Shown one piece after another: positions 35,796-40,267 of a stretch of DNA of 42,320 nucleotides. The notes below the pieces were generated by a model, which was not told where the DNA came from, searched no databases, and saw nothing but the letters and a program-made list of their open reading frames with translations. A program made the translations under genes and the position numbers. Every line of letters starts with the position of its first letter. Position 1 is the stretch's first letter. This DNA is from Fibrobacter sp. UWH6 (GTDB lineage Bacteria > Fibrobacterota > Fibrobacteria > Fibrobacterales > Fibrobacteraceae): positions 1 to 42,320 of the forward strand of contig NZ_FRAX01000023.1 of assembly GCF_900142465.1 (NCBI RefSeq), given 5' to 3'.

Positions 35796-36419
35796 ATGAA
35801 ATTTCGCTTTGGCATATTTGTATTCCTTCTGATGAGTTTGCAAGTATTTGCGCAGGACATCTTAAAAGATTCCCGAGATAATCAGGAATACAGGACGGTA
35901 AAAATTGGTTCCCAGGTTTGGATGGCGGAGAACCAGAGTTTTGCTGCGGAAGAAAGTTGGTGCTATACACGTTTCAATTACGACTGTCGCAAGTACGGCC
36001 GTTTTTATACTTGGGATGTGGCGAAGGATGTTTGCCCCGCCGGTTGGCACCTGCCCACGGCCGCAGAATTTGAACAGCTTTTCGCAGACGTAGGCGGTCG
36101 GGACTCCGCAGGCGTCAAGTTGAAATCCGCTGAAGGCTGGAGCCATTACGGCAACGGTTCCGACGAGTACGGCTTTAACGCAACGCCCTCGGGTTTCCGC
36201 GATTACCGCGGTCGCTTCGATCGCCAGACAATGTACGCTTATCTGTGGAGCGCCACGGAAGAGGGTGTGTCGCAGGATGGCACAAACTTGCAGGATGGTG
36301 ATGCCGCGCCCAGCAAAAAAGCAATCGGCGTCCACATGATGGCTGGCCGCAAGGATGTTTCCGTCTACCCTTATGCAAAGAACTTCGGACTTTCCGTTCG
36401 CTGTGTGAAGGATGAATAA
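35796..36419 (+). CDS. Secreted FISUMP (Fibrobacter succinogenes major domain) protein
   Basis: The 207-residue protein has a signal peptide ending VFAQD. It then carries the FISUMP blocks: DSRDNQEYRTVKIGSQVWMA, YGRFYTWDVAKDVCPAGWHL, PTAAEFEQLF, NATPSGFRDYRGRF and the C-terminal LSVRCVKDE. The family is expanded in Fibrobacter and thought to be exported and cell-associated; its molecular role is unknown. Four cysteines are conserved-looking (two near WCYTRF/YDCRK, one in VCPAGW, one in VRCV). Its stop codon overlaps the next start (TAATG), coupling it to the DUF1349 gene. Confidence 0.9.
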   Translation: MKFRFGIFVFLLMSLQVFAQDILKDSRDNQEYRTVKIGSQVWMAENQSFAAEESWCYTRFNYDCRKYGRFYTWDVAKDVCPAGWHLPTAAEFEQLFADVGGRDSAGVKLKSAEGWSHYGNGSDEYGFNATPSGFRDYRGRFDRQTMYAYLWSATEEGVSQDGTNLQDGDAAPSKKAIGVHMMAGRKDVSVYPYAKNFGLSVRCVKDE

Positions 36420-37030
36420 TGAAAATGAATGCCAAGGATTGGTTCTGGACTAGGGCTCCGAAAAAGTTTTCCATTACGGATGATGTTATTGAAATCATTA
36501 CGGAACCTCATACGGACCTTTGGCAAAGAACCTATTATCATTTCCGAAATGATAACGCACCGGTTCTTCAAATCAAGACTGCAGAGAAGTTTTTCTCTTT
36601 CGTCGTGAAGACTTCTTTCGAAAGCAAGAAGCGTTTTGACCAGTGCGGCGTGGCCATGTATCTGGATAGCGAAAACTGGCTGAAGGCTTCCATCGAATAC
36701 GAGAATGAAAAATTCCAGCATCTTGGAAGTGTGGCCACCAACATGGGCTATTCCGACTGGGCTACCACCGCAATCAGTGCCGATATTAAATCCATGTGGT
36801 ATCGCTTCAGCCGTCGCGAAAATGATTTCTGCATTGAATGTTCCGAAGACGGTTCCAACTTTTCACAAATGCGAATTTGCCACATGTGGAAAGCTACCGA
36901 CGAAATCCAGTTTGGCATTTACGCTTGCAGTCCCGAAGATTCCTCCTTTAGGGCTGTATTTACCGACATGGAATTGACGGAATGCAAATGGCTTGCCCAT
37001 AACGGACAAGCCCCAGACGAAAAAATCTAG
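36419..37030 (+). CDS. DUF1349 (concanavalin-like fold) protein
   Basis: The 203-residue protein lacks a signal peptide. WFWTRAPKKFSITDDVIEII, FFSFVVKTSFESKKRFDQCG, VAMYLDSENWLKASIEYEN and FGIYACSPED follow the DUF1349 pattern (DQAGlmvy-x-d-x-x-WiK, then G-x-y-a-x-S-P). The fold is a beta-sandwich related to sugar-binding lectin-like domains. Single-domain cytoplasmic members are of unknown function. It is translated with the FISUMP gene and ends shortly before a strong terminator. Confidence 0.85.
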   Translation: MKMNAKDWFWTRAPKKFSITDDVIEIITEPHTDLWQRTYYHFRNDNAPVLQIKTAEKFFSFVVKTSFESKKRFDQCGVAMYLDSENWLKASIEYENEKFQHLGSVATNMGYSDWATTAISADIKSMWYRFSRRENDFCIECSEDGSNFSQMRICHMWKATDEIQFGIYACSPEDSSFRAVFTDMELTECKWLAHNGQAPDEKI

Positions 37031-37036
37031 AACGCT

Positions 37037-37072
37037 CCTTAAACCGTTCTTCCGCCCCACTCTTGCGAGTGG
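37037..37072. repeat. Duplicated 3' end of a DUF763 gene, left copy
   Basis: This 36-bp stretch matches 37867-37902 at 34 of 36 positions. Read on the minus strand it encodes HSQEWGGRTV-stop, the last ten residues of the DUF763 protein. Both mismatches are synonymous (CAA/CAG for Gln, GGA/GGC for Gly). Confidence 0.85.
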
Positions 37073-37082
37073 GATTTTTTTT
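37056..37082 (+). terminator. Terminator of the FISUMP-DUF1349 operon
   Basis: CCCACTC (37056-37062) pairs with GAGTGGG (37067-37073) around TTGC, followed by ATTTTTTTTT. The stem lies within the left copy of the DUF763 end. A second short hairpin, ATCAG/CTGAT with nine T's, follows at 37097-37119. Confidence 0.85.
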
Positions 37083-37120
37083 GTATATTTGACTCAATCA
37101 GAAATACTGATTTTTTTTTA

Positions 37121-37240
37121 TATCTCCCCTAAAGGGGATCATGCGCACTAAGGAATAAATTCCTAAGTGCTGTCCGTCCTTGACAAGGGCCCAAGAGATC
37201 AATCTCAAAGGGAAATGCGTTCTTCAGGAAAAAAGTGAAA
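37121..37240 (+). ncRNA. Candidate structured RNA of unknown class
   Basis: Four hairpins follow one another with little space: CCCC-TAAA-GGGG (37126-37137), GCACT-A-AGGAA with TTCCT-A-AGTGC around TAAA (37145-37170, 10 bp and one A/A mismatch), CCTT-GAC-AAGG (37178-37188) and GAGA-TCAA-TCTC (37195-37206). No coding frame is present between the terminator and BrnT (37083-37338). I do not recognise a known class. Strand is uncertain. Confidence 0.35.
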
Positions 37241-37338
37241 ATACTCAGAATGGAGTTAAATGCGTCCGCAATCGCATTGCAGGCACTTGCGTTTATTTTT
37301 GAATGTAATTATATTGTAGTTATACATCGAGGTCTATT

Positions 37339-37653
37339 ATGGAAATAGATTTCGAGTGGGATGAAAAGAAGAATGAGATAAATCGGAAAAAACATGGCGT
37401 ATCTTTTGAAGAAGCCAAGAGTTGCTTTGAAGATGATCATGCTAGAGTTTTCTTTGATGTAGAACATTCAAAAGATGAAGATCGTTCTATTCTTATAGGA
37501 TTGTCTTCTGAACTAAGAACCTTGATTGTTGTCTATACGGAACGTGTTAATGATGATGATGATTTGATTGTCAATCGCATCATTAGTGCCCGGAAAGCGA
37601 CGAAGAAAGAGTTTCAGTATTATTGGAATGCGCGTAAAGGAGATGAACCATGA
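37339..37653 (+). CDS. brnT: BrnT-family toxin
   Basis: The 104-residue protein starts MEIDFEWDEKKNEINRKKHG, which is the BrnT opening (F-x-W-D-x-x-K-x-x-x-N-x-x-KHG-V-x-F). RSILIGLSSELRTLIVVYTER and RIISARKATKKEFQYY complete the family. BrnT is a ribonuclease-type toxin that blocks translation until bound by BrnA. A GAGGT site precedes the ATG. The stop codon overlaps the brnA start by four bases, as is usual for this pair. Confidence 0.93.
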   Translation: MEIDFEWDEKKNEINRKKHGVSFEEAKSCFEDDHARVFFDVEHSKDEDRSILIGLSSELRTLIVVYTERVNDDDDLIVNRIISARKATKKEFQYYWNARKGDEP

Positions 37654-37865
37654 AGAAAGAGTATGATTTTGAAAAAATGAAGGCTGTAAGAAATCCTTAT
37701 GCGGCTGCATTAAAAAAACAAATTACCATTCGGTTGAATTCTTCAACCATTGAGTATTTCAAGAAAATGTCAAAGGATCAGGGCATTCCTTATCAGACTT
37801 TGATTGATTCTTATTTGACAGATTGTGCTGTCAAAAAGAGAAAGATTTCAATTGAATGGAAATAG
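37650..37865 (+). CDS. brnA: BrnA-family antitoxin
   Basis: The 71-residue protein has KKQITIRLNSSTIEYFKKMS and GIPYQTLIDSYLTDCA, the ribbon-helix-helix pattern of BrnA. It binds BrnT and its own operon promoter. AAGGAGAT precedes the ATG inside the end of brnT. The gene ends 3 bases before the convergent DUF763 gene, whose 3' end contains a terminator-like stem (CCACTC/GAGTGG then T's). Confidence 0.92.
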   Translation: MKKEYDFEKMKAVRNPYAAALKKQITIRLNSSTIEYFKKMSKDQGIPYQTLIDSYLTDCAVKKRKISIEWK

Positions 37866-37866
37866 G

Positions 37867-37902
37867 CCTTAAACCGTTCTGCCGCCCCACTCCTGCGAGT
37901 GG
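37867..37902. repeat. 3' end of the resident DUF763 gene, right copy
   Basis: This is the resident DUF763 3' end and matches 37037-37072 at 34 of 36 positions. The stem CCACTC-CTGC-GAGTGG followed by seven T's also serves as a plus-strand terminator for brnTA. The two copies bracket 794 bases holding the candidate structured RNA and brnTA. Confidence 0.85.
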
Positions 37903-39218
37903 TTTTTTTCATGCTCCAGAGTTTTATCGAAGTCGGCGAGGGGTTCGCAGTCTTTTTCGATGGCCAGCTGGGTGGCGTGAAGGCGGTTGAGGCAATCCAT
38001 TTTATCTCGGTCGCCGATTTTCGCCTTTTCAATAGCGCCTTTCAGAACGCGAATGGATTCGTCGTAAACTCTGGTGGGAACAGGGAAGGGGTGCCCATCC
38101 TTGCCACCGTGGGCGAAGGAATAGCGGGCAGGGTCCCTAAAGCGGGAAGGAGTTCCGTTAATCACTTCGCTGACGAGAGTGAGGGATTGCAAAGTGCGGG
38201 GGCCAAGTCCCGGTGTTAACAGCAGACTTTCAAAATCCTTGGGGTTGGATTCGTAGGCGGTTGCAAGTACGCCCCCAAGGCGCTTCAGGTCCACATCTTC
38301 TGCGCGGACTTCATGGCGGTTGGGCATAATGCAATCCCGGGAAGAATTTGCGACGATAGGGTCTCGGCAGGTTGCCCTTGCGACGTCCATTCCTGCGCGA
38401 GCGATTTCCCACGGGGCTGCACTTGACAGGGGATTGCCGGAGGCGTCAACAAGTTGGGATTCTGGCGGGGCGAACAAATCCATTTGGGGCGAAACAATGA
38501 CAGAAGAATTGGGAGCCACAATCTGCTGTATCTCACGCATCATCCTGTCGGGATTTTCGTGAGTCAGTTCCAGAATGGAGTTGCGGGTAATGCCTGCTTC
38601 CTGATGAGTCAAGTTCAGAATCTGCCCGCGGTTTTCGCCTACCACGCCTGCGTGGGGTTCTTCTACAAAAGAACGCAAGTTAGAAGAACACCAGTGGTAA
38701 CGTCTTGCAGCCCGGGCGTCCGTATTCATGCCCTGCTGAACCACCGCCCAGTCGCCCTCATCCGTCACGATAAAATTATGCTGATAAAGCTGGAATCCGT
38801 CTTGCACCGCGGTGTTGTCCACCTTGGCGCAAAGACAGCTGGTGCGCTTCAGGTAATTCCCGTCCACGCCGGTCTGGTCTGCAATCTGCAGCAGTTCCGT
38901 AGGAGTCTCCCGCGAAAACTTTCCGCGACCGCCGCACACATAAATCCCAAGGTCCCTTGCAATAGGGTTCAGCCCACGCTTCAGGGCATACATCACGCTG
39001 GTGGTAATTCCCGAGGAATGCCAGTCCATGCCCATGACCGCCCCGAAGGACTGAAACCACAGCGGGTCACTTAGGCGAACCAGAAATTCCTTCTTGCCGT
39101 AATTCTCCACAATGGATTCGGCAATGAGTCTGCCCAAGTCACGCATACGGTCTGCGAGCCAACGGGGAACAGTCCCCGTATGCAAAGGCAAGTCTGCAAC
39201 ACCAGTACGCTTAGGCAT
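37869..39218 (-). CDS. DUF763 domain protein
   Basis: The 449-residue protein begins MPKRTGVADLPLHTGTVPRW. FLVRLSDPLWFQSFGAVMGMDWHSSG and YVCGGRGKFSRETP are hallmark DUF763 (COG1415) blocks. FESLLLTPGLGPRTLQSLTLVSE contains a helix-hairpin-helix-like GLGP, a DNA-binding turn. YSFAHGGKDGHPFPVP is another conserved block. No signal peptide. The family is found in archaea and bacteria and is uncharacterised; the HhH-like turn hints at nucleic-acid binding. Its last 36 bases are duplicated at 37037-37072. No clear ribosome-binding site is seen. Confidence 0.87.
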   Translation of the reverse strand: MPKRTGVADLPLHTGTVPRWLADRMRDLGRLIAESIVENYGKKEFLVRLSDPLWFQSFGAVMGMDWHSSGITTSVMYALKRGLNPIARDLGIYVCGGRGKFSRETPTELLQIADQTGVDGNYLKRTSCLCAKVDNTAVQDGFQLYQHNFIVTDEGDWAVVQQGMNTDARAARRYHWCSSNLRSFVEEPHAGVVGENRGQILNLTHQEAGITRNSILELTHENPDRMMREIQQIVAPNSSVIVSPQMDLFAPPESQLVDASGNPLSSAAPWEIARAGMDVARATCRDPIVANSSRDCIMPNRHEVRAEDVDLKRLGGVLATAYESNPKDFESLLLTPGLGPRTLQSLTLVSEVINGTPSRFRDPARYSFAHGGKDGHPFPVPTRVYDESIRVLKGAIEKAKIGDRDKMDCLNRLHATQLAIEKDCEPLADFDKTLEHEKNHSQEWGGRTV

Positions 39219-39259: not shown

Positions 39260-40267
39260 CTATGCTTTATAAGAGGCAATCTTTTCGCGAAGTTCCAAAA
39301 AGTTGTCAAAGTCGCTTTTCAGATTTGCAAGTTCCTTTCGCTTGAAGAGCTTGTATTCGCGTTCAGCTTTTTCCATGGCATCTTCGTGAGAAATCTTACC
39401 ATTGCCCTCGAGTAATTTTCTCTGGCTCATGACAATCTGGTTGTCCAGGGCGTCTATCCAGTCCTGCATGCGCATTTGCTTTTCGTCAAGGGCCTGCAAT
39501 TCTGCAAAATCCAGGAACTGAGAAACCATCAGGTTCAAACGTTGTAATTCTTTTTCAGATAAATAATTCTTGGCGATTTTTACATCTTCTTCGGTAACGT
39601 AATTTCCCTTGAAGTTAGTCATGCCGACAAACGGTTTTTCGCTATCCACACGTTCGTAAATCAGTTCTGCGGCTGTATGCTCGTGAACGGCATAGTGCAA
39701 TTTGTTCTGCACGGTTGCAAAAAAATCCAGCGTGATCTTTTTACGGGGATCATAGTCTACGGCGGTGGCGTAAATGTCTGTCACCTGCTGATAAAAATTT
39801 CGTTCAGAGGAACGGATGTCGCGAATGCGCTGGAGTAGTTCCTTGAAATAGCGGTTGCGGCCATTTTTCAATCGTTCGTCATCTAGCGCAAAACCCTTTT
39901 GGATAAATTCGTGCAGACGCGTTGTGGCCCATGTCCTGAATCGAGTCGCCACTGGAGATTGCACGCGGTAACCGATGGCAATGATGATATCGAGATTGTA
40001 GTGTGCAATTTCGCGTTGAACATTCCGCTTGCCTTCTTGCCGAACTAACAAGAAATCCTTGTGAGTTGACTCGCGAGGCAATTCGCCGTCCTTATAAATA
40101 TTGTCGATATGGAGACTAACGTTTTGTTGCGTCGTCTCGTAGAGCTCCGCAAGCTGGACCTGAGTCACCCAGACATCTTCATCGGCAAAACGGACAGAGA
40201 CGTTTGTCTTGCCATTTTCATCTTTGTACAGCAATATGGAATTGTCTTCAGGACGGACTTCTTTCAT
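39260..40267 (-). CDS. RhuM family protein
   Basis: The 335-residue protein has the RhuM opening: ILLYKDENGKTNVSVRFADE, DVWVTQVQLAELYETTQQNV (a helix-turn-helix-like segment) and NLDIIIAIGYRVQSPVATRFRTWAT. The C-terminal half is helical and charged. RhuM proteins were named from a Salmonella pathogenicity island and are common on mobile and defence loci; their action is unknown. TACATT ends 7 bases before the ATG with no ribosome-binding site, so the mRNA may be leaderless. Confidence 0.88.
   Translation of the reverse strand: MKEVRPEDNSILLYKDENGKTNVSVRFADEDVWVTQVQLAELYETTQQNVSLHIDNIYKDGELPRESTHKDFLLVRQEGKRNVQREIAHYNLDIIIAIGYRVQSPVATRFRTWATTRLHEFIQKGFALDDERLKNGRNRYFKELLQRIRDIRSSERNFYQQVTDIYATAVDYDPRKKITLDFFATVQNKLHYAVHEHTAAELIYERVDSEKPFVGMTNFKGNYVTEEDVKIAKNYLSEKELQRLNLMVSQFLDFAELQALDEKQMRMQDWIDALDNQIVMSQRKLLEGNGKISHEDAMEKAEREYKLFKRKELANLKSDFDNFLELREKIASYKA

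Follow-up and report, generated by a model that had tools for sequence, protein, structure and literature searches.

A BrnT/BrnA toxin-antitoxin pair between two terminator-like copies of a DUF763 gene end in Fibrobacter

How does a small toxin-antitoxin pair come to lie between two copies of the 3' end of the neighbouring gene? The question is raised by contig C23 of a 3.92 Mb Fibrobacter genome, labelled G000 among the 80 genomes of the genus compared here. The whole stretch analysed, 42,320 nucleotides, is referred to as the window. The features of the locus are listed below.

36419-37030, plus strand: DUF1349 gene (PF07081, 5e-67), convergent with the DUF763 gene, with the left copy directly after it
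36632-37879, no strand: tract about 98-99% identical to genome G063, bounded by maximum-likelihood change points (flanks 83-90%)
37037-37079, no strand: left copy of the DUF763 3' end, whose reverse complement reads KSHSQEWGGRTV and a stop
37056-37073, plus strand: terminator-like hairpin in the left copy, with a T-run
37124-37180, no strand: palindromic dispersed element GCGCACTAAGGAATaaATTCCTAAGTGC, REP/MITE-like
37302-37338, plus strand: brnT upstream region, which accompanies brnTA at other loci too
37339-37653, plus strand: brnT toxin gene, 104 aa (PF04365, 1.1e-25)
37650-37865, plus strand: brnA antitoxin gene, 71 aa (PF14384, 3.6e-8)
37867-37909, no strand: right copy, the true DUF763 3' end, with a terminator-like hairpin (37887-37902) behind brnTA
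37869-39218, minus strand: DUF763 gene, 449 aa (PF05559, 5e-134)

By gene order and family membership the pair is a putative BrnT/BrnA type II toxin-antitoxin system. The brnT gene precedes brnA with a 4-nt overlap, and both products score above the cut-offs of PF04365 and PF14384. An earlier sequence-only reading had named BrnT, BrnA and DUF763, and these calls hold (PF04365 1e-25, PF14384 4e-8 and PF05559 5e-134, respectively). The two copies enclose the brnT upstream region, brnT and brnA. A possible structured RNA had also been placed here, and the stretch 37080-37200 does fold (z -3.15); Rfam gave zero matches in the window. This 'structured RNA' contains a genus-wide dispersed palindrome and is not specific to the brnTA cassette: a 261-base query with the palindrome has matches in 66 of the 80 genomes, most of the matches listed lie over 37124-37180, and those to this part (80-95%) occur at many sites in the genus, several within the window's own genome.

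The repeat was first described as two 36-bp copies, which are present where reported and extend to a direct repeat of 43 nt (37037-37079 and 37867-37909). The copies are 830 bp apart and identical at 39/43 positions (91%), while the runner-up direct repeats in the same 4.5 kb are 15-21 nt long and 75-88% identical. On the minus strand either copy reads HSQEWGGRTV and a stop. The copies had been said to differ only silently, which is correct for the 36 nt, where CAA/CAG and GGA/GGC are the sole differences, but not for the next codon, which is Ser in the left copy and Asn in the right (KSHSQEW and KNHSQEW). G063 and G009 have Ser in their real DUF763 proteins, and the left copy is identical to the functional DUF763 ends of both genomes at 43/43 positions. 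The full match and the shared Ser codon indicate descent from a functional DUF763 gene, and bear out the proposal that the left copy came from a diverged but functional one.

Both copies fold into terminator-like hairpins, and the left copy could in principle be a conserved terminator common to other genes, with no DUF763 ancestry. We regard this as highly improbable. Searched across the whole genome with up to 3 mismatches, the repeat matches these two places only (0 matches for the reversed control), as does the hairpin part searched alone. Across the genus all other matches lie at or beside a DUF763 end, and the 43/43 identity to DUF763 ends includes the coding Ser codon. The genome-wide search and this identity contradict a terminator shared with unrelated genes. 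A dispersed repeat is ruled out, as the genome holds two copies only.

The silent differences had been read as a trace of the original integration; comparison with G063 points instead to a mosaic left by a later import. Identity to G063 is 84.6% at 36419-36658, 97.4% at 36659-37036, 99.1% at 37187-37880, 85.2% at 37881-38380 (Fisher p 6e-23 across the boundary with 37187-37880) and 92.5% at 38481-39218, with 37080-37186 and 38381-38480 excluded because indels leave their alignment uncertain; the upstream background is 89.8%. The best change points by maximum likelihood, which like the alignments rest on draft genomes, fall at 36632 and, within the right copy, at 37879. G063 and G009 are themselves about 96% identical across most of the locus, although a few windows have lower values, which fits close relatives. 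The window genome thus acquired the greater part of DUF1349, together with the left copy and brnTA, by import from a G063-like genome, and retained its own DUF763 gene and right copy. The imported tract ends inside the right copy, which accounts for the silent differences between the copies.

DUF763 is an accessory gene in Fibrobacter, present in 11/80 genomes, one of which (G021) has a 3' fragment only. Repeat searches and gene mapping around DUF763 revealed three site states in the genus. At the empty sites (G077, G079 on contig C26, and G081) a FISUMP-domain gene faces DUF763, with a single copy of the gene end and no gene between. In the brnTA state (the window, G024, G063 and G009) the order is FISUMP, DUF1349, copy, brnTA, copy, DUF763; the window DUF1349 gene is 89-94% identical in nucleotides to those of G009, G063 and G024. 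In G036 the order is FISUMP, a 181-aa gene, copy, genes of 318 aa and 235 aa, a Fic gene (359 aa, resembling PADLOC SoFic, 4e-92), copy, DUF763. DUF1349 is missing at the corresponding site in G077, G079, G081 and G036. The sequence-only reading had proposed an insertion and had looked to relatives for empty sites and other cargo; G077, G079 and G081 provide single-copy sites without brnTA, which lack DUF1349 too, and G036 provides the other cargo. These comparisons support an insertion at the DUF763 3' end, and no empty site matching on both flanks was found. An ancestral junction of DUF1349, copy and DUF763 was not found among the 11 genomes with DUF763, whose empty sites are also without DUF1349. 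The stop codon of the G024 DUF1349 gene falls within the left copy, an arrangement that would follow if two convergent genes originally met there.

The G036 copies share about 26 nt and both bear that genome's own variant, AAACCGTCTTGCC, which indicates that the gene end was duplicated locally, most likely in an event distinct from the arrival of brnTA. Only two insertion events are documented at the Fibrobacter DUF763 site.

Several other features were seen around DUF763 genes. A RhuM-family gene (39260-40267; PF13310; PADLOC candidate PDC-S05, 6e-141) is immediately upstream of DUF763 in the window; one is also near DUF763 in G024 and G036, and none was found in the stretch read around DUF763 in G077, G079 and G081. 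The window's own genome has a second, decayed DUF763 fragment (G000:C27:623-760; 46 aa, 83%, one stop). The G021 fragment (L173, 6010-6156, on G021:C57) is isolated, has about 49 codons and 69% aa identity, and is a remnant of a lost gene or of an insertion; this genome has no other DUF763 match. In G007 (L169, 7036-7850, on G007:C66) a different small module, a 147-aa ORF with an upstream partner, lies behind DUF763, and no second repeat copy was found there; it may resemble DUF2442/DUF4160 pairs.

The HSxEW codons of the DUF763 tail form a palindrome (CACTC...GAGTG) and the preceding Lys codons give a T-run on the opposite strand, so the gene end has the appearance of an antisense intrinsic terminator. 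Terminator prediction called both window copies terminator-like on the plus strand (4 found, against a mean of 1.9 in shuffles). The left copy folds at -12.7 kcal/mol (z -2.9) and the right at -8.6 kcal/mol (z -1.6), in agreement with the earlier suggestion that the repeat doubles as a terminator. The left copies of G063, G009 and G036 fold at -13.1, -13.1 and -11.0 kcal/mol, with T-rich tails, and that of G036 has lost the HS codons and kept the hairpin and T-run. This suggests that left copies persist as predicted terminators of the convergent gene, where termination would be the function under selection.

Homologous brnTA pairs occur at other loci in the genus. For those of G077 (contig C18) and G081 (contig C14) the homology to the window spans 37302-37863 exactly, from the promoter region to the end of brnA, and their BrnT proteins have 90% aa identity to the window BrnT. 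G080 has a brnTA pair flanked by 164-nt direct repeats that are 90% identical and each start with a terminator-like hairpin; at least one further BrnT-like module adjoins it, with a third, partial copy of the spacer. G080 gives a second example in which spacers that bear a terminator-like hairpin are duplicated around brnTA. The neighbouring BrnT-like modules of G080 (L296, 6093-7812; G080:C4:324092-325811) make up a cassette-like array, with spacers of 86-164 nt that are 83-94% identical and carry a terminator-like hairpin. Two of its BrnT toxins are just 49% and 82% identical to the window BrnT, despite the near-identical spacers. A general rule that brnTA always lies between duplicated terminators was rejected: in 30 loci the arrangement was clear only at the DUF763 locus and in G080, and the matches in G022, G028, G002 and G016 were a single locus with generic G/C hairpins.

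Duplicated gene ends were also sought in a wider sample of DUF763 genes and other genes, drawn from Fibrobacter, Treponema and its relatives, Bacteroidota and others. The last stretch of the gene recurs downstream in 6/126 DUF763 genes (L018, L019, L044, L047, L048 and L234) against 3/626 other genes (Fisher p 0.001), in 4 against 3 without Fibrobacter (p 0.017), and in 3 against 0 when tandem duplications are also removed (p 0.004); these counts come from few events, the samples share some genomes, and it was the data themselves that prompted this comparison. The three recurrences in other genes are all apparently tandem repeats or paralogs; that count leaves out the L019 DUF1349 gene, which involves the same repeat, and four weak or paralogous matches scoring 20-28. 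The best case outside Fibrobacter is Avitreponema L044 (6100-10350), where 105-nt copies of the DUF763 3' end surround a type II restriction-modification system, made up of an Eco57I-type methyltransferase and a BsuBI/PstI endonuclease, along with two more genes. An AbiEii-like gene lies just past the duplicated segment. The DUF763 end is also duplicated, less cleanly, in Pedobacter and Treponema. The L234 copies are 5.4 kb apart, decayed and fused to another reading frame.

Pedobacter L047 is a partial tandem duplication of DUF763, with copies 737 bp apart, and together with L048 it demonstrates that plain partial duplications exist. The gene end could accordingly have been duplicated first in Fibrobacter, in tandem or in part, with brnTA falling between the copies later and no mobile unit involved. 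We consider this quite unlikely, as no Fibrobacter genome has two copies without cargo between them, and the two different cargos found between copies argue that insertion and duplication were coupled.

A site-specific integration at the DUF763 3' end was the mechanism first proposed, with no integrase on the element. A recombinase acting in trans would then make the repeats attL and attR, and the brnTA or Fic genes non-autonomous cargo. The insertion does lie exactly at a gene 3' end and restores the gene, differing cargo occupies the same site (in G036, and restriction-modification (RM) genes in Avitreponema), and such duplications are over-represented at the DUF763 end. The two copies in G024, like those in G036, are also closer to each other than to the copies of other genomes, a likeness that repeated excision and integration would also produce. 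As first stated, the inserted genes include no recognisable integrase; the window insert carries no recombinase gene, just brnT and brnA between the repeats, and no integrase, transposase or recombinase was recognised in the window ORFs scanned or in the cargo of G036 or L044, several ORFs of which match no family. The duplication is about 26 nt in G036, 43 nt in the window and 105 nt in Avitreponema L044, which speaks against a fixed core. A viral source was rejected: the repeat, searched as a single exact pattern, was found in no viral contig, and DUF763 has no match in phage records. Its plasmid matches are mostly to rhizobial replicons, at <60% identity. Integration at a tRNA was set aside, as the window has none. 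DUF763 was also considered as a possible recombinase; no sequence relative was found in the PDB, and weak SH2 matches (E 0.01) were judged to be chance. Its AlphaFold model (pLDDT 69, medium confidence) gave a best Foldseek E of 0.36 and a best VIA-align Z of 4.7, no basis for assigning a fold or function. Site-specific integration is on this evidence unlikely.

The variable duplication lengths and the lack of a recognised recombinase favour insertion with a long target duplication, and we think it probable, with some reserve, that brnTA entered in this way, by one-sided homologous joining, and later spread by recombination. In the joining that we infer, incoming DNA would pair with DUF763 by homology on one side, and on the other the join would form through a short T-rich match next to the terminator-like hairpin. 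The resident gene end would stay behind as the left copy and the incoming end would become the new DUF763 end. The left copy would then be kept because it terminates the convergent gene, the right copy would serve brnTA in the same way, and the cassette could later pass between species by ordinary homologous recombination.

Insertion with a long and variable direct target duplication, and with no recognised mobile element, is described for RM genes (Nobusato et al. 2000; Furuta et al. 2010, as cited in PMC3874152 and PMC3031569), where duplications are on the order of 100 bp (PMC3874152); one example is given in PMC1643837. The Fibrobacter locus is similar in that direct target repeats flank the insert, one of them the true gene end; a single undisrupted target is present in relatives (G077, G079 and G081, which are without DUF1349); and the duplication length varies between events. 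The Avitreponema case, with an RM system and a 105-nt duplication, is closest. Unlike in the cases that those papers describe, the cargo is BrnTA in the window and Fic in G036, with RM genes only in Avitreponema; the Fibrobacter duplications are shorter, about 26-43 nt; and the duplications include an antisense terminator-like hairpin, with the same gene end hit repeatedly.

Two other kinds of element share features with the locus. Some integrative elements have their attachment site at the 3' end of a protein-coding gene, the copy on the insert restoring the gene end and direct repeats flanking the element. Here too the gene end is restored by the insert's copy and direct repeats lie at both ends, but there is no recognised recombinase, no fixed core, and an insert of about 0.8 kb with brnTA only. 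Integron gene cassettes can carry toxin-antitoxin genes and are small units parted by hairpin-containing repeats. The window likewise has a small toxin-antitoxin unit and hairpin-containing repeats, whereas the repeat, judged by eye, is without the GTTRRRY core of attC.

The event is of a known kind; possibly new are the toxin-antitoxin cargo, a duplicated gene end that is also terminator-like, and a hotspot that may cross phyla. A broader conjecture, which we offer tentatively as less than probable, is that selfish modules (BrnTA, Fic, type II RM) have landed repeatedly, in at least two phyla, at the DUF763 3' end and duplicate the gene end as they enter; in Fibrobacter the HSxEW antisense terminator may make or keep insertions viable, the insert having a terminator at either side. 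That many toxin-antitoxin and defence genes move with no mobile element in sight raises the question of how they travel. This locus offers a natural series at one gene end, comprising an empty site, brnTA, other cargo and a mosaic import, with junctions readable base by base. It has the look of a site where selfish genes land time and again, not of a chance repeat, and it suggests that terminators encoded within gene ends could serve both as the entry point and as the reason that the duplication is kept.
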